Source: a virus
Virus record (IMG/VR): IMGVR_UViG_3300044638_001100
Span: 1-20,109 of that record
Direction: 5' to 3' (one strand)
Length of the DNA stretch: 20,109 nucleotides
Part shown: piece by piece, positions 1,323 through 6,981 of the stretch
Layout: every line of letters starts with the position of its first letter
How positions within the stretch are numbered: the stretch's first letter is position 1
Notes under the pieces: model-generated
Databases searched by the model: none
What the model saw: only the letters and a program-made list of their open reading frames with translations
What the model was told of the DNA's origin: nothing
Translations under genes and position numbers: made by a program

Positions 1323-1787
1323 TTAGGCTACAAGTCCGGGAACATACTGCGTTTTACCAGCGACTTTCATAGCGGTCAACTCCTGTTTTTTCAAGTTATT
1401 CGGGTCGTAGGACACATGCACCCAGCCACTGTCAGGAATGCCGGGGGTGTAGAACTCCAGAATCAACTGGGTGTAGTCCAGATTATCCATGATCCACTGC
1501 GCTAAGTCAGCGTTTGCTACGCCGGGAATCTCTATATCGGCTGCTCGGCCAAGGCAATGGTCTGAGGACTTTGAGCCTCCGGTAGCTTGGTTGACGGCTG
1601 GAGCACGGAACCCTGAGTTCACCTTAACGCCTTTGCCAAAGTGGTCTCGGACAGGCTGGAGGACTTTCTCGCACAACAAGCGCAGGCTCGCAGTCTCGGC
1701 TTCGCCGGGGGTGTTGTCCAAGTCAAGACGCAGTGCAGTCTCAGATTTTGTCAGTTCGTGGAGGGAAAAGTTAGCGGTCAGGTTCAT
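1323..1787 (-). CDS. Endolysin, M15-type zinc D,D-carboxypeptidase/endopeptidase
   Basis: This 154-residue protein would cut peptide bonds in peptidoglycan. The family is peptidase M15 (M15_3 type), recognised from the FSLHELTKSETA opening, the VNSGFRAPAVN segment and the zinc-site pattern. Likely metal ligands are H77 and D84 (SSDHCLGRAADIEI) and H124 (SGWVHVSY); E111 in QLILEF fits the catalytic base. Length is typical of single-domain phage M15 lysins, with no cell-wall binding domain. There is no signal peptide or signal-anchor, so release to the periplasm should need a holin; the two-helix protein at 2230-2550 is the candidate. The ATG overlaps the Rz stop as ATGA, with AGGAGC upstream as ribosome-binding site. 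Its position beside Rz/Rz1 confirms a lysis role. Confidence 0.92.
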   Translation of the reverse strand: MNLTANFSLHELTKSETALRLDLDNTPGEAETASLRLLCEKVLQPVRDHFGKGVKVNSGFRAPAVNQATGGSKSSDHCLGRAADIEIPGVANADLAQWIMDNLDYTQLILEFYTPGIPDSGWVHVSYDPNNLKKQELTAMKVAGKTQYVPGLVA

Positions 1788-2233
1788 TGGGCGCTCCTAG
1801 CGTTGTTGTAAAGGGTTATGCAGGCATTGAGCTTTTCAATGGCTCGGTTGCCTTCGTCGGTTATGGCGACAAGAGCTTTAGCAGTCTCTCGGTCAAGTTC
1901 GGCTGATGCTTCTCCTCCACTATCTCCTGTGGGAGTGGCGGGATCTGGGGAGGCTGGTACGGGGCAGGTCGTTTTGACGCGCAGCTTGAGAGCGCCAGAA
2001 TCAATAGCAGCATCGCGCTGCTTTGTAGCAAGTTTGGCTTTTTCATTGGTCTTCCTCAGTGCTTCAGCGGTGGTGGTTACGGCAACGGCTAGAGCCTGTT
2101 CCTTGGCCCGTGCTTCAGTGTTTAAACGATCAACTTCCACCTGCTGGGCTTCTCTCTCGACATACTTGCCGTAGAAATACCCGCCGCCAAAGGTCAGCAG
2201 CAGGGCAATCAATCCAGAGAGTAAACCCTTCAT
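1784..2233 (-). CDS. Rz: Rz-like inner-membrane spanin (i-spanin)
   Basis: This 149-residue protein begins MKGLLSGLIALLLTFGGGYF, one N-terminal membrane helix (about residues 4-21). A charged, Ala/Glu/Lys-rich coiled-coil-like stretch follows (about 25-80), then a proline-rich linker and a second helical part. That is the layout of an i-spanin: anchored in the inner membrane, with its periplasmic part bound to Rz1 so that inner and outer membranes fuse in the last step of lysis. The start overlaps the stop of the holin candidate as ATGA and has no strong ribosome-binding site of its own, so coupling is likely. A complete Rz1-type lipoprotein gene lies wholly inside it in another frame, which makes the assignment firm even without clear sequence similarity to lambda Rz. 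Confidence 0.85.
   Translation of the reverse strand: MKGLLSGLIALLLTFGGGYFYGKYVEREAQQVEVDRLNTEARAKEQALAVAVTTTAEALRKTNEKAKLATKQRDAAIDSGALKLRVKTTCPVPASPDPATPTGDSGGEASAELDRETAKALVAITDEGNRAIEKLNACITLYNNARSAQ
1861..2046 (-). CDS. Rz1: Rz1-like outer-membrane lipoprotein (o-spanin), nested inside Rz
   Basis: This 61-residue protein starts MKKPNLLQSSAMLLLILALS and has a lipobox ending at Cys22 (LSSC). The predicted mature lipoprotein is about 40 residues. It is rich in proline (RPAPYQPPQIPPLPQE), as in known o-spanins, and ends in a short amphipathic stretch. Residue 23 after the lipid-bearing Cys is Ala, not Asp, which fits export to the outer membrane. The gene lies entirely within the Rz gene in a different frame, the embedded arrangement known from several phages. 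GAGGAAG seven bases or so before the ATG is a good ribosome-binding site. The coincidence of signal peptide, lipobox, proline-rich core and Rz overlap makes this a real gene and not a shadow frame. Confidence 0.9.
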   Translation of the reverse strand: MKKPNLLQSSAMLLLILALSSCASKRPAPYQPPQIPPLPQEIVEEKHQPNLTERLLKLLSP

Positions 2234-2753: not shown

Positions 2754-3030
2754 TCTTACGTCTCTCCTGTTCCATCTCACGCCTTAACTTTTCAAGCTTC
2801 TCAGTCTGCATCTTCACTTCATGCTTGGCATCTAGTATGTCCAAGTACAACATTCCCAGCATTGGCAAGAGCAGGGCGACCAACACACAAGCAGCAATCC
2901 AGCCCATCACGTCTTCCCCAAACGACTGACGAACAGGAGCCACAACCACAGGTAAAGGAGGAATAGGATAGTCGCTACGAGATACGCCGACTTTGCTTGG
3001 AAGTTTCTTTTTTCCTCCCGTCGTTGCCAT
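2740..3030 (-). CDS. Small membrane protein with proline-rich N terminus and C-terminal coiled coil
   Basis: Ninety-six residues. In order: a basic start (MATTGGKKKLPSKVG), a Pro/Val-rich stretch at 21-32 (YPIPPLPVVVAP), one membrane helix at about 43-63 (GWIAACVLVALLLPMLGMLY) and a highly charged helical tail to the end (EKLEKLRREMEQERRKNDK), which looks like a coiled coil. I do not recognise the family. AAAGG upstream of the ATG supports the start. The first 124 bases overlap the end of the preceding gene in another frame, where that gene encodes its own membrane helix. The protein has a plausible membrane and coiled-coil design along its whole non-overlapping part, so I take it as real. 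Its place directly before the lipoprotein and holin candidate suggests the lysis block. Confidence 0.7.
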   Translation of the reverse strand: MATTGGKKKLPSKVGVSRSDYPIPPLPVVVAPVRQSFGEDVMGWIAACVLVALLLPMLGMLYLDILDAKHEVKMQTEKLEKLRREMEQERRKNDKT

Positions 3031-3509
3031 TGCTTGTACCTTTCCTGCGCCTCTTCCTTCAACCTTGCCTTCTCCTGTTCCTCCTGTATGACGCTTCGCA
3101 TGTCAAACACTTTGCTGTACAGCGCCCCCATCTCAGGCGGTGACTGATACACCATCGTTTCCCTGATCGTCACTTCCAGCGCAGCCATCTGGTCTTGAGC
3201 CATAACCCTCTTCAGGGCGGCTTCCATCAGGTTGGCGTTGGGGTCGTAGACAGTCTGGCTCTTTTCTTCCTCTTCTCTTATGTGCGCCGCCAACTGCTCT
3301 TGCAACTTGAAGAACTCAGTAAGCTGGCTGACAACATTCGCCATGACTTGGGTTTCGTCAACAGCAACGTACTTTTCCTTCTTTTTCGCCACAGGCTTGG
3401 GCGCGGCAGGGGCGGGGGTTCCACCAAACATCTTTGCCAGCTTGCCCCAGAACCCATGAACTTCCTTGGCAATCCCAACAGCTTCATCAACTGTAGCCTT
3501 GACCTCCAT
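2907..3509 (-). CDS. Helical protein with C-terminal membrane anchor; true start probably upstream
   Basis: From the first ATG (3509) the protein has 200 residues. It has an Ala/Pro/Lys linker (about 28-46, TPAPAAPKPVAKKKEK), a long charged helical region (about 50-165) with likely coiled coils, and one C-terminal membrane helix (about 175-195, LVATILFLLYLWLWLLFVS) with a short basic end. This looks like a tail-anchored membrane protein; I recognise no named family. The ATG has no good ribosome-binding site. The frame stays open upstream for 31 further residues from an ATT at 3602, and that stretch (IDPISILFAANACVAAIKEG and on) looks like real protein. The gene probably begins there or lost its original start. 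Its last 124 bases overlap the next gene. Confidence 0.72.
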   Translation of the reverse strand: MEVKATVDEAVGIAKEVHGFWGKLAKMFGGTPAPAAPKPVAKKKEKYVAVDETQVMANVVSQLTEFFKLQEQLAAHIREEEEKSQTVYDPNANLMEAALKRVMAQDQMAALEVTIRETMVYQSPPEMGALYSKVFDMRSVIQEEQEKARLKEEAQERYKQWQRREEKRNFQAKSAYLVATILFLLYLWLWLLFVSRLGKT

Positions 3510-3602
3510 GAAAGAAGTCTTTGCCTGCTTGTAAAGCTCGCACCCTTCCTTGATGGCAGCGACACAAGCATTTGCGGCGAAGAGGATGGAGATTGGATCA
3601 AT
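3510..3602 (-). other. Probable coding extension of the tail-anchored protein gene, without a normal start codon
   Basis: The frame of the gene at 2907-3509 continues upstream to the stop of the adhesin gene (TAA at 3627-3629), with no ATG, GTG or TTG between. The peptide from 3602 reads IDPISILFAANACVAAIKEG and then CELYKQAKTSF. The first 18 codons match the repeat copy at 4718-4773. Three of the four base differences are silent in this frame, while in another frame they would change residues, so this frame has been under selection. ATAAGG lies eight bases before ATT at 3600-3602, so an AUU start is possible. Alternatively AAG at 3612-3614 is a mutated ATG. Confidence 0.5.
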
Positions 3603-3604
3603 TT
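3549..3604. repeat. 56-base direct repeat, copy A
   Basis: This segment matches 4718-4773 at 52 of 56 positions, in the same orientation. The longest exact run is 27 bases (3559-3585). Homology stops sharply at both ends. The copy lies in the 5' part of the tail-anchored protein gene and is in frame with it. Together with copy B it flanks the adhesin and tail-chaperone genes. Confidence 0.92.
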
Positions 3605-3626
3605 CAAAGACCTTATTTGTTTGATT

Positions 3627-4229
3627 TTATGCCGCAAATAAGTATATATAGCCAGCTCTTGAAACCGCGCCTGACCCGTCAGTTCGTCTTACAGTAACTG
3701 TAATATTAAGATAGCCGTAGCCGGGGCCTCCAGAGGCGTACCTTTGATACGAAAAAGTGCGTGCAGTGCCAACGCTTACATACGGTGTGCTATATCCAGA
3801 ACCAAAGTAGAACTCTCCCAACCATATCATGCGATATTGGCTTGGCGATGTGTTTGTAAAATAAACGCTAAACTCAATACCGCTTCCAATACCAGCGCCA
3901 GTTGGGGTGCAGTATGCCGTGGGAGATGGATAAACATTATTGCCCTGCCCCCCGCTATAAGTAATAGTTCCGTCAGATTGAAAAGTAATACTAGGTAACT
4001 TGCTAAAATCACCAGACGTGTAAGTGGTGCCGTAGTCCCACGTATTTCCATTATTAAACTGCGGGGTAATGTTAGTTTTTCCCTGTAAGTTACTCATGCT
4101 GATAGTGCCACTTGGCACGCCTGCAAGAGTTCGCACGTTGGCTTGGTTTAAGCTGATGGCTGTTGTCGCGGCTAACCCCAACTCGGTGTTGACCTGCGAC
4201 ATTGATATTGTTCCGGTAGGTAGAGTCAT
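3627..4229 (-). CDS. Small tail adhesin-like protein
   Basis: Two hundred residues. The N terminus has two related blocks: LPTGTISMSQVNTELGLAAT and, about 38 residues later, VPSGTISMSNLQGK. I know this GTISMS-type opening from many phage tail and fibre-associated proteins, where it probably serves attachment. The rest is Gly/Ser/Thr/Tyr-rich and appears to be beta structure (for example YLNITVTVRRTDGSGAVSRA), suiting a receptor-contacting tip. The ATG follows AAGGCGA and sits nine bases after the tail chaperone stop, so the pair is probably translated together. The two genes lie between direct repeats, suggesting exchange as a cassette. A receptor-binding role is inferred from composition and neighbours; no catalytic motif is visible. 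Confidence 0.65.
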   Translation of the reverse strand: MTLPTGTISMSQVNTELGLAATTAISLNQANVRTLAGVPSGTISMSNLQGKTNITPQFNNGNTWDYGTTYTSGDFSKLPSITFQSDGTITYSGGQGNNVYPSPTAYCTPTGAGIGSGIEFSVYFTNTSPSQYRMIWLGEFYFGSGYSTPYVSVGTARTFSYQRYASGGPGYGYLNITVTVRRTDGSGAVSRAGYIYLFAA

Positions 4230-4238
4230 TCGCTCGCC

Positions 4239-4703
4239 TTAAGGTATTGTGGGCCAAGTGATACTGTCAGGGAAATCGTTTTGTTCAGGTACATCACGCA
4301 AAGCTTGTCTGTACGCCAGATACGCTGCTTTCTTTGCGTCAGACAATGGAGAATCAGATAGCACCGCCCAATCAGACGCAAACAAAAGTTGATTGCGTTG
4401 AATTCTTGCCATTTCTTCTGGCGTACGTTGTGGGTAAACTGGCGCTTCTGGTTCTGGCGCGGGTTGGAATGTTGCTGCGGCAGAATGATTGACAAGGTTT
4501 TTGGCGGCTGTTATTTCAGCAGTTTCCCAGCGGTATTTAGGAAGGGACTGAATCACCCGTTCTTTAATCTGGTCTTCTGTCATGCCGTCATCTAATTGCA
4601 CCCAATTACCCCAAGGTGGCAACGATGTGTCGGTGGGGGTGTAAATAACAAACAGTCGTTTTTCAGACTGGATGTAATTTTCAATTTTGTATGTGAATTC
4701 CAT
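4239..4703 (-). CDS. Phage tail assembly chaperone-like protein
   Basis: This 154-residue protein has an N-terminal part of uncertain fold with PPWGNWVQLDDGMTEDQIKE, a Pro/Glu/Ala linker (PAPEPEAPVYPQ) and a C-terminal segment RNQLLFASDWAVLSD, AYRQALRDVPEQ and SITWPTIP. The C-terminal pattern (RN-LL-SDW, YRQALRD-P, I-WP) is typical of the tail assembly chaperone family (Phage_tail_APC type) often coded next to fibre genes. Such proteins help fold or trimerise fibres. The likely client is the adhesin coded nine bases downstream, or one of the large fibres. GGAG upstream of the ATG is a clear ribosome-binding site. The 70 bases before the gene hold repeat copy B and no gene of their own. Confidence 0.8.
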   Translation of the reverse strand: MEFTYKIENYIQSEKRLFVIYTPTDTSLPPWGNWVQLDDGMTEDQIKERVIQSLPKYRWETAEITAAKNLVNHSAAATFQPAPEPEAPVYPQRTPEEMARIQRNQLLFASDWAVLSDSPLSDAKKAAYLAYRQALRDVPEQNDFPDSITWPTIP

Positions 4704-4717
4704 TTTTTACTCCGTAT

Positions 4718-4773
4718 CTTAATTGCGGCGACACAAGCATTTGCGGCGAAGAGGGTGGAGATTGGATCAATTT
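4718..4773. repeat. 56-base direct repeat, copy B (likely remnant of the 5' end of the tail-anchored protein gene)
   Basis: This copy lies between the stop of the 735-residue fibre gene (4774) and the start of the tail chaperone (4703). Read on the minus strand it encodes IDPISTLFAANACVAAIK, one residue different from copy A, and then runs into unrelated sequence (codons for I-R). It has no start codon and no continuation, so it looks like a gene fragment left by an insertion or duplication. Confidence 0.88.
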
Positions 4774-6981
4774 TTACTTCGCTTTAAGTGCAGTGAGCTC
4801 AGCCTGAACACTGTCCAGTTTGGCGTTTAACTCTTTAATGGCGTTTATTAACGGAGAAATAAACATTTCTCTTGAGATGGCTTGAATTGTGTCCGCTCCA
4901 ACATCCCAACCAGCAAAAGTTGTTACCCCTTCAGCATCTAGAGCGGCTTTAACTTCTTGCGCTATAAGGCCATGCATGACAGTGTTTGTGTCGCGTTTAT
5001 TTTTTTCGTTATAGTACGGAAGAGTCTGGTCAATTTCGTTGCTTGGCTTCCACTGGTATTTAACTGGACGCAAACGATTGATAAATGACAGACCCAGAGA
5101 GTCTTCTTGAATATTTTTCTTTAGCCTCTCATCAGAAGTTTGAGTCCAAGTAGCATTTACTGTATAAGCGTTATAAATCTTACCGGCAAAGTTTCCAATT
5201 GTTACAGTGCTATCTGCTTGTCCTGTAAGAGAATCGCCGATAACAATCTGCTGAGCAGAAGTGGCGCTACTAGTATCTGCGCTATACCCAATGCAAGTAT
5301 TCCCACTACCTGATGTTATCCTATCACCTGCTGTAAAACCTATACAAACATTGTAAGCACCAGAGTCTATAAGACGTCCGGATTGAGAGCCAACAGCCGT
5401 ATTGTAGTCGCCGCCTGTAACAGAAGTAAGTGCAGTATTCCCACAAGCCGTATTGTCAAAAGCGGTCGATAAAGCGTTTGCTAGGGCGCTAGTTCCAATT
5501 GCGGTAGAGGTTGATACTCCAGAATTCCCAGTGCAGTTAAGAGATGTTAGGGCAGAAATTGAACCGCCTGTAATGCTAACGCTACTACTATTTTGAGTAG
5601 CCATAGTACCAAGACCAAGATTACTTCTAGCTCCTGAATCAGTAGTTGCGCCTGTGCCGCCGTTGGCAACAGCAACAGTGCCTGATACGTTACTCGCCGT
5701 TGTGGCGTTGGTGGCATTGGTTGCGTTCGTGGCGTTCGTTGCAGAAGCTACTGACTGACTGGCAATATTAGCGGACGTAATGAAGGTGCCGCCAGACTGG
5801 GGGCCGGTAGCTGTTAACGCGTTGCCTGAACATGATGCTGCTGTTGTTGCATTCGTGGCGTTGGTGGCGTTCGTGGCGTTCGTGGCGTTGGTTGCATTTG
5901 TAACAGCCGTCGATCCAATTTGACCAACAATATCCGCCGCACTTGCAACGGTAACCGCTGAACCCCCTGCACCTTTCAATAATGCGCCGGAAGAAAATGT
6001 TGTAGCCCCTGTACCGCCATTAGCAACAGGCAAAGTGCCTGTCACGTTGGTGGTTAAGTTTGCAAACGTAGTTGAGGTTGTCCCTGTACCGCCGTTGGCA
6101 ATTGGCAAAGTTCCAGTCACGCCAGAAGTCAAACTGACATTTGTGATTGTGTTGCTTGAGCCGTTGATGGTTGAGCTAGTAATAGTTTTGTTGCTCAGAG
6201 CCTCCGTACCAGCCAAGGTTGCCAATGTGCCCGTTGTGGGCAGAGTGACAGAGGTTGTGTTGGTAGCTGTGAGGGTGGTTGCAAATGCGCCTGATGTGGT
6301 CAGGTTGCCCCCCAAAGTGATTGTCTTGCCTGAGTTGGCGACACCTGTACCGCCGTTAGCCCCGAGCAATACGCCAGAAATATCAGCGCTACCAACGTCG
6401 ATGGCATCCCAGCTTGTGTTTGTGCCGTCGGATTTCAGATACCTTCCGTTGGCACTTGTTTGTACTGGAGCCAGAGCGTTGAAGGCTGCGTTGGCTGTGA
6501 CTTGACCTGTGCCGCCTTTGTTGATGGCCAAAGTTCCAGTTATGGAGGATGCTTGCAACTCGTTGAAGTTTGTGCCATCAGACCACACTATGACCTTAGC
6601 GCCGTTGGCAATTGTTACCCCTGTGCCCGCTGCGGTGGTGTTACCGATTACAGTCGAGTTGTAAATAATCATCGAGTAGCCACTGTCGTTCCACACGATA
6701 TACTGCTTTGACGCTGGGGGAGCATAGACGTTGAACGCCGCGCCGGTGGTTGTCGTGAAACGCAGCATGGCGTAGACAGACTGGTTATCCGCAACGGTAG
6801 AAGATGCCCCGTTGATGTATGTCAGGGCTTGGCTGGCGCTTGTGACACTGACAGTTTGATACCCGGCAATTGCTGCTTCCAAAAGGTACGCAAACGTGTT
6901 GTTTGTGGTCGTGCCCCATGTACCGGCTTGAGCGCCTGCGTCGATCAGTTCAATGCGTAGGTCTGGTGAATATGAACTCAT
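4774..6981 (-). CDS. Tail fibre with C-terminal peptidase S74 chaperone domain
   Basis: This 735-residue fibre starts with YSPDLRIELIDAGAQAGTWG, an N-terminal module common in phage fibres that probably binds the tail. A shaft follows with GGTG-containing repeats (LPIANGGTGTTS, LPVANGGTGATT) and runs of Asn-Ala-Thr. About residues 494-570 carry five units of about 17 residues with a G-x-x-A core (for example NTAVGS, NVCIGF, NTCIGY), likely a trimeric beta-roll. The end is a peptidase S74 intramolecular chaperone domain: S616-D-E-R-L-K621 gives the Ser-Lys pair, with HGLIAQEV and a final coiled coil (AIKELNAKLDSVQAEL). S74 domains guide trimer folding and then cut themselves off. AAGGATG precedes the ATG. 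It is one of two S74 fibres here. Confidence 0.92.
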   Translation of the reverse strand: MSSYSPDLRIELIDAGAQAGTWGTTTNNTFAYLLEAAIAGYQTVSVTSASQALTYINGASSTVADNQSVYAMLRFTTTTGAAFNVYAPPASKQYIVWNDSGYSMIIYNSTVIGNTTAAGTGVTIANGAKVIVWSDGTNFNELQASSITGTLAINKGGTGQVTANAAFNALAPVQTSANGRYLKSDGTNTSWDAIDVGSADISGVLLGANGGTGVANSGKTITLGGNLTTSGAFATTLTATNTTSVTLPTTGTLATLAGTEALSNKTITSSTINGSSNTITNVSLTSGVTGTLPIANGGTGTTSTTFANLTTNVTGTLPVANGGTGATTFSSGALLKGAGGSAVTVASAADIVGQIGSTAVTNATNATNATNATNATNATTAASCSGNALTATGPQSGGTFITSANIASQSVASATNATNATNATNATTASNVSGTVAVANGGTGATTDSGARSNLGLGTMATQNSSSVSITGGSISALTSLNCTGNSGVSTSTAIGTSALANALSTAFDNTACGNTALTSVTGGDYNTAVGSQSGRLIDSGAYNVCIGFTAGDRITSGSGNTCIGYSADTSSATSAQQIVIGDSLTGQADSTVTIGNFAGKIYNAYTVNATWTQTSDERLKKNIQEDSLGLSFINRLRPVKYQWKPSNEIDQTLPYYNEKNKRDTNTVMHGLIAQEVKAALDAEGVTTFAGWDVGADTIQAISREMFISPLINAIKELNAKLDSVQAELTALKAK
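5704..5898 (-). repeat. Two clusters of 9-base repeats coding Asn-Ala-Thr runs in the fibre
   Basis: Clusters at about 5704-5741 and 5847-5898 consist of near-identical 9-base units (ggcgttggt / ggcgttcgt on the plus strand). They encode four to six consecutive NAT triplets each in the fibre shaft. Such runs are prone to slippage and could change shaft length. Confidence 0.75.

Follow-up and report, generated by a model that had tools for sequence, protein, structure and literature searches.

Exchange of tail fibre genes between unrelated phages has been described for P2, Mu, P1, lambda and T4, according to the studies cited in PMC3945230 (its references 71-74). The locus analysed here resembles these cases in that receptor-binding genes appear to pass between unrelated phages together with their assembly helpers, host-recognition modules being thereby replaced or supplemented. 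However, the exchanges in P2, Mu, P1, lambda and T4 are ascribed, in the account that PMC3945230 gives of them, to site-specific recombination of the invertase type, whereas here no integrase accompanies the genes and the trace left behind is a partial duplication of 56 bases. The locus is also reminiscent of the mosaicism, due to relaxed homologous or to illegitimate recombination, described by De Paepe et al. 2014 (PMC3945230), with joins at gene borders and unrelated genes lying between conserved neighbours, and the conserved 5′ end of the gene at its right border could serve as a homologous patch. It differs from that mosaicism in that the left join looks non-homologous and in that the recombinase types searched for occur in one of seven long relatives (ERF in one, tyrosine integrase, PF00589, and RecT in none). 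Small chaperone genes that adjoin the gene of a putatively dependent tail protein are known from Alteromonas phage V22 (gp26/gp27; PMC7289586), T4 (gp37/gp38) and Mu (Tfa); here, in contrast, a chaperone of the PF16778 family precedes its putative partner. Finally, the border gene, which we named IDPIS after the first residues of its protein, starts at ATT, as does infC of E. coli (PMC5472188). The infC and sigR starts are under IF3 control (PMC5472188), whereas IDPIS genes form a phage family of unknown function in which ATT alternates with GTG.

The window is the whole stretch of 20,109 nucleotides that was analysed (IMG/VR virus record IMGVR_UViG_3300044638_001100). The genes of interest all lie on its minus strand and are transcribed in the order S74 fibre (6981-4774), copy B of the repeat, chaperone (4703-4239), adhesin-like gene (4229-3627) and IDPIS with copy A, followed downstream by small membrane proteins, a holin-like gene, a spanin pair and an M15 endolysin. 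This corrects the order of the gene pair, the chaperone being transcribed before the adhesin-like gene. The features are, in the order of transcription:

4774..6981, minus strand: tail fibre of 735 aa with a C-terminal S74 domain (chaperone of endosialidase; PF13884, 50 bits for a cut-off of 22; phrog_4636 tail spike, 113 bits).
4718..4773, minus strand: repeat copy B, a duplicate of the first 18 codons of IDPIS including its ATT start, directly behind the fibre stop.
4239..4703, minus strand: phage tail assembly chaperone of 154 aa, first gene of the cassette (PF16778, 74.5 bits for a cut-off of 26.6).
3627..4229, minus strand: adhesin-like protein of 200 aa, a receptor-binding candidate, second gene of the cassette.
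3549..3604, minus strand: repeat copy A, the 5′ end of the IDPIS gene (2 bases, the ATT start codon and codons 2-18).
2907..3602, minus strand: IDPIS gene of 231 aa, predicted to be tail-anchored and all-helical, with a conserved ATT start (3602-3600).

The two copies of the repeat are identical at 52 of 56 bases in the same orientation. Elsewhere in the window, copy A matches without gaps at no more than 30 of 56 bases, and 33 of 56 is the best reached in 200 shuffled windows. Both end abruptly, the sequence running on as ATACGGAG... beyond copy B and as GAAGGGTGCG... beyond copy A. Hence, the direct repeat with sharp ends reported in the original prediction is confirmed. The same prediction held that both copies encode one peptide, which is not borne out: copy A encodes IDPISILFAANACVAAIK and copy B encodes IDPISTLFAANACVAAIK. 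It was right in placing copy A in frame in the downstream gene. This gene does not start at ATG 3509, its coding sequence beginning at the ATT of 3602-3600.

The start of IDPIS marks a sharp limit in related genomes. With the IDPIS protein as the query, one scan retrieved 588 relatives, 80 of which were fetched. When the window is compared by blastn with nearly every relative, homology sets in at the very start of copy A and is lost upstream. In 64 distinct relatives whose protein identity is 75% or more, nucleotide identity to the window is 0.23-0.40 (about 25%) across the 60 bases that precede the start codon and rises to 0.73-0.90 (about 82%) behind it, and the step falls at base -2 of the start codon, which is the first base of the repeat. 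Moreover, the proteins encoded immediately upstream of IDPIS in 98 loci fall into 36 unrelated clusters, which include S74 fibres, Gp10_C-type fibres, glycine-rich adhesins, other tail chaperones, 2OG oxygenases, a methyltransferase and small membrane proteins. Since identity jumps at this point and the upstream genes fall into so many clusters, the IDPIS start is the right-hand limit, fixed in position, of a hypervariable stretch of tail genes. Its presence in many freshwater phage contigs provides a handle for mining receptor-binding genes.

One relative (L017) displays this border with just one copy and without the cassette. In this relative, the S74 fibre gene abuts IDPIS, the junction is the same as at copy B and the last 16 bases of the fibre gene are those of the fibre gene of the window. 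By blastn, positions 1449-1520 of L017 align to copy B plus these 16 bases, and L017 from 1465 aligns to copy A onward. An S74 fibre also adjoins IDPIS in L240. Because the L017 fibre differs from that of the window, L017 represents the empty junction of a relative and not the direct ancestor. The original prediction had pointed to relatives with one copy and no cassette, of which L017 is an example, and to relatives with other genes between two copies; other genes do occupy the same border in relatives, but never between two copies. Furthermore, a scan of IMG/VR for copies of the IDPIS start that are not followed by a G-initial codon retrieved 38 stretches, namely truncated copies in the four contigs of this virus and 34 genes with Q at codon 19. 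No truncated second IDPIS start was found in other loci among these 38 matches and the 87 loci with the peptide, and neither the fetched loci nor the pattern scan revealed other genomes in which an insertion had duplicated this site again. As a truncated second copy was found in this virus only, the repeat is a private scar of this virus and not a general exchange device.

Four other IMG/VR contigs (L001-L004), which come from other samples, also have both copies, differing from each other by the same four mismatches and enclosing the same cassette, and the two-copy arrangement was not found outside this virus, i.e. the window and these four contigs. The contigs are separate assemblies. L002 and L004 differ from the window at about 72 positions near 1000-1500, in the endolysin region, the remaining shared stretch being nearly identical; this region appears to have been exchanged recently among strains of the virus. 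L003 shows strong differences in the N-terminal part of the fibre and near 2500-2750. Despite these differences elsewhere, the cassette and both copies are identical across all five sequences.

By the search made here, the chaperone has no more than three non-self relatives in IMG/VR (L160, L112 and L161), with 73-75% identity. In L160/L119, L112 and L161, the pair has kept its order and spacing, a gene with the adhesin N-terminal module following 9-10 nt after the chaperone. Since L161 encodes a T4-type gp32 (PF08804, 152 bits; phrog_224), along with a cell-wall hydrolase, it is T4-like; L160 and L112 have neighbouring genes in common with it, and all three are classed here, from their gene content, as T4-like phages. 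Local alignments of the window to the three contigs start at base 4720, with the last 3 bases of copy B, and therefore T4-like homology begins where the repeat ends. On the right side, the alignments stop beyond the N-terminal module of the adhesin-like gene, the C-terminal half being diverged. With a GC content of 0.456-0.466, the cassette differs from the IDPIS gene (0.523) and from the T4-like contigs (0.40). As the T4-like relatives are only 73-75% identical, they would not be the direct donor.

Two further observations concern the neighbourhood of the border. The S74 fibre, the left neighbour of the inserted segment and assigned by a C-terminal S74 domain above cut-off, has a GC content that drops to about 0.42 in its C-terminal third also (window 4550-5550), and its tip may therefore be a separate import. 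The gene that immediately precedes IDPIS in L041 (3311-3952) resembles, by eye, the gene that follows the adhesin gene in L160 (6586-7233) and L112 (5717-6364), which suggests that T4-like DNA may have entered the spot upstream of IDPIS more than once.

Concerning the function of the pair, the original prediction of an adhesin and its chaperone stands for the chaperone, whose residues 98-154 match Phage_tail_APC (PF16778) above the curated cut-off, and less firmly for the adhesin, which is proposed from its position, its chaperone neighbour and other weak evidence. The adhesin-like protein consists of a conserved N-terminal module of 50 residues, present in 79 IMG/VR loci, and a variable C-terminal part predicted to be beta-rich. 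Full-length relatives are encoded by L083, which is the best one at 44% identity, and by L161, and the C-terminal half thus has no close relative. The protein matches phrog_26817, of unknown function, and its structure model is a beta-sandwich of low confidence (pLDDT 68.5), for which structure comparison gave no convincing fold match. By analogy with members of known families such as V22 gp26/gp27 (PMC7289586), the chaperone would serve the adhesin-like protein, which would contact the host. The cassette may thus add or alter a receptor-binding protein matured by the chaperone and could have an effect on host range.

The segment 3549-4773 is probably a horizontally acquired, T4-derived tail module joined by illegitimate recombination. 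The chaperone-adhesin pair, native to T4-like freshwater phages, would have been inserted between the S74 fibre and IDPIS. At the left join, T4-like DNA from just upstream of the chaperone ribosome-binding site would be fused to codon 18 of IDPIS and, at the right join, an intact IDPIS would have been left behind the adhesin; since the left join is made at codon 18 and the right one retains the intact gene, copy B is what remains, truncated behind codon 18, of the original contact between fibre and IDPIS, whereas copy A belongs to the functional gene. The claim that a receptor-binding cassette was inserted where a resident gene starts, the 5′ end of which is now double, is supported by the empty site of L017, the swapped neighbours and the T4-like homologues that begin at the end of copy B. 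The simplest route would be a single unequal illegitimate crossover between two related phages, one with the fibre next to IDPIS and the other with chaperone, adhesin and IDPIS in a row. Among the IMG/VR relatives of the cassette genes, no phage with this second arrangement and without copy B was found, and the second parent is therefore hypothetical. Microhomology at the left join amounts to 3 bases at most (AAG/AAA), hence its non-homologous appearance. An insertion after codon 18 that did not restore the gene would destroy IDPIS, so that selection to keep IDPIS intact would suffice to explain the partial duplication. We infer the number and the order of these steps, as well as a setting of mixed infection.

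A variant of this scenario that concerns the steps only is a tandem duplication in place, slippage or template switching having copied the 5′ end of IDPIS while a T4-like fragment was caught between the copies. Among 79 distinct alleles, no two are closer than copies A and B (4 differences), L017 coming next (5 differences). A duplication in place accounts for this no less well than a hybrid of two parents, 56 bases being too short to separate the two. The failure to find a cassette-bearing parent that lacks copy B also speaks for it. However, it requires two non-homologous joins and a duplication. In addition, three of the four differences between the copies are third-position changes that are also present in other functional alleles, a hint, with too few sites for significance, that copy B diverged while coding. 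We therefore view a duplication in place as a tentative alternative to the crossover, possible but not the expected course of events.

The 56-base repeats might instead be att-like sites or homology arms of a dedicated mobile cassette. They are located exactly where relatives diverge, and empty and swapped versions of the region exist. Nevertheless, two copies are found in this virus alone (38 pattern matches and 87 peptide loci), the segment between them contains two genes only, with no integrase or transposase, and no integrase was detected in the seven long relatives either; furthermore, the cassette is identical in all five sequences and relatives swap genes at the border without a second copy, all of which makes such a device very unlikely. 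The same facts leave unsupported the original idea that the repeats allow the cassette to be lost or swapped, since the five sequences keep both copies and the relatives need no second one. No deletion product with this fibre was found, and loss of the cassette by recombination between the repeats is possible.

Slightly less credible still is a functional reason for the retention of copy B, which might be a translated leader that tunes the expression of the chaperone. The frame of copy B, which retains the ATT start, is open for 59 codons and overlaps the chaperone start, and the copy is identical in all strains of this virus. However, this identity covers the whole region and not copy B alone, AUU is a weak start, and the chaperone has its own ribosome-binding site, GGAGTAAAAAATG, in common with a T4-like relative that lacks copy B. 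Lastly, an artefact in which the assembler made the second copy, as might be suspected in a metagenomic contig with near-identical repeats, is ruled out for practical purposes because four contigs assembled from other samples show the arrangement as well, the two copies keeping their four fixed differences while the variation in the flanks is not the same.

The locus offers an unusually clear view of a freshwater phage that would have gained a receptor-binding module from an unrelated phage, in which the type of donor, the recipient junction and the scar can all be named. This tail-module mosaicism is well resolved but of an ordinary, already-known sort of phage gene swapping. More unusual, and perhaps more interesting, is the conservation of an AUU/GUG start in the border gene.

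Among 105 distinct loci, the first codon of IDPIS is ATT in 87, GTG in 17 and a GTG located one codon upstream in one. Inclusion of two more clades, which are about 30% identical to the window, brings the total to 228 distinct loci, with ATT in 158, GTG in 69, another codon in one and neither ATG nor TTG in any. In none of the 87 ATT loci does an ATG, GTG or TTG lie in frame between the upstream stop and the ATT, the next such codon usually being codon 32. In codons 2-31, substitutions are distributed as 188:64:1336 over codon positions 1, 2 and 3, and no periodicity is seen in the 30 bases upstream. Moreover, a Shine-Dalgarno-like word (4-6 bases, located 3-12 bases away) precedes 66 of the 105 starts; for comparison, this is the case for 105 of 511 random codons and for 23 of the 94 ATGs at codon 32. 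Since no canonical start lies upstream, codon periodicity sets in at the start and Shine-Dalgarno-like words are enriched, IDPIS is very likely translated from AUU. Control of this start by IF3, as for infC (PMC5472188), may be suggested by analogy. No prior report of AUU/ATT starts in phages was found in the part of the literature that was covered, and the many natural variants of IDPIS make non-canonical initiation in phages testable.

Because of this conserved start, gene callers cut the first 31 codons off the genes of the IDPIS family; in the window, for instance, standard ones start at ATG 3509. A comparable shift is seen in two GenBank records, the start of which is annotated 7-8 codons downstream of the conserved one: GTG in L252 (MW202484.1, 4001-4022) and GTG one codon further up in L253 (MW202462.1, 4001-4025).

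No PHROG family matches the IDPIS protein at E<=0.001, and neither Pfam nor PDB gave a significant match. The structure model of this protein comprises four long helices (pLDDT 75.7) with a predicted C-terminal membrane anchor, and structure comparison gave no convincing fold match. On balance, we favour the view that IDPIS represents a large undescribed family of freshwater-phage membrane proteins, the AUU/GUG start of which would be selected for low expression and perhaps be IF3-sensitive, the same codon forming the border of the host-recognition region. One relative (54% identical) sits in a contig of a betaproteobacterial MAG. This is only a hint of a betaproteobacterial host, since the MAG contig may be a binned phage contig.

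Two minor observations concern the genes associated with IDPIS. A contig of 64.8 kb, IMGVR_UViG_3300020727_000019, carries IDPIS and the lysis genes twice, at opposite ends and with 78-81% identity (L377, 1-2562; L387, 1-3681), which may reflect either a real duplication of the block or a contig made of two strains. In the window, a lipoprotein-like frame of 61 aa (1861-2046) is nested, in a different reading frame, within the Rz-like spanin gene (1784-2233, minus strand; phrog_1327), and the two are likely to be an embedded Rz/Rz1 pair.
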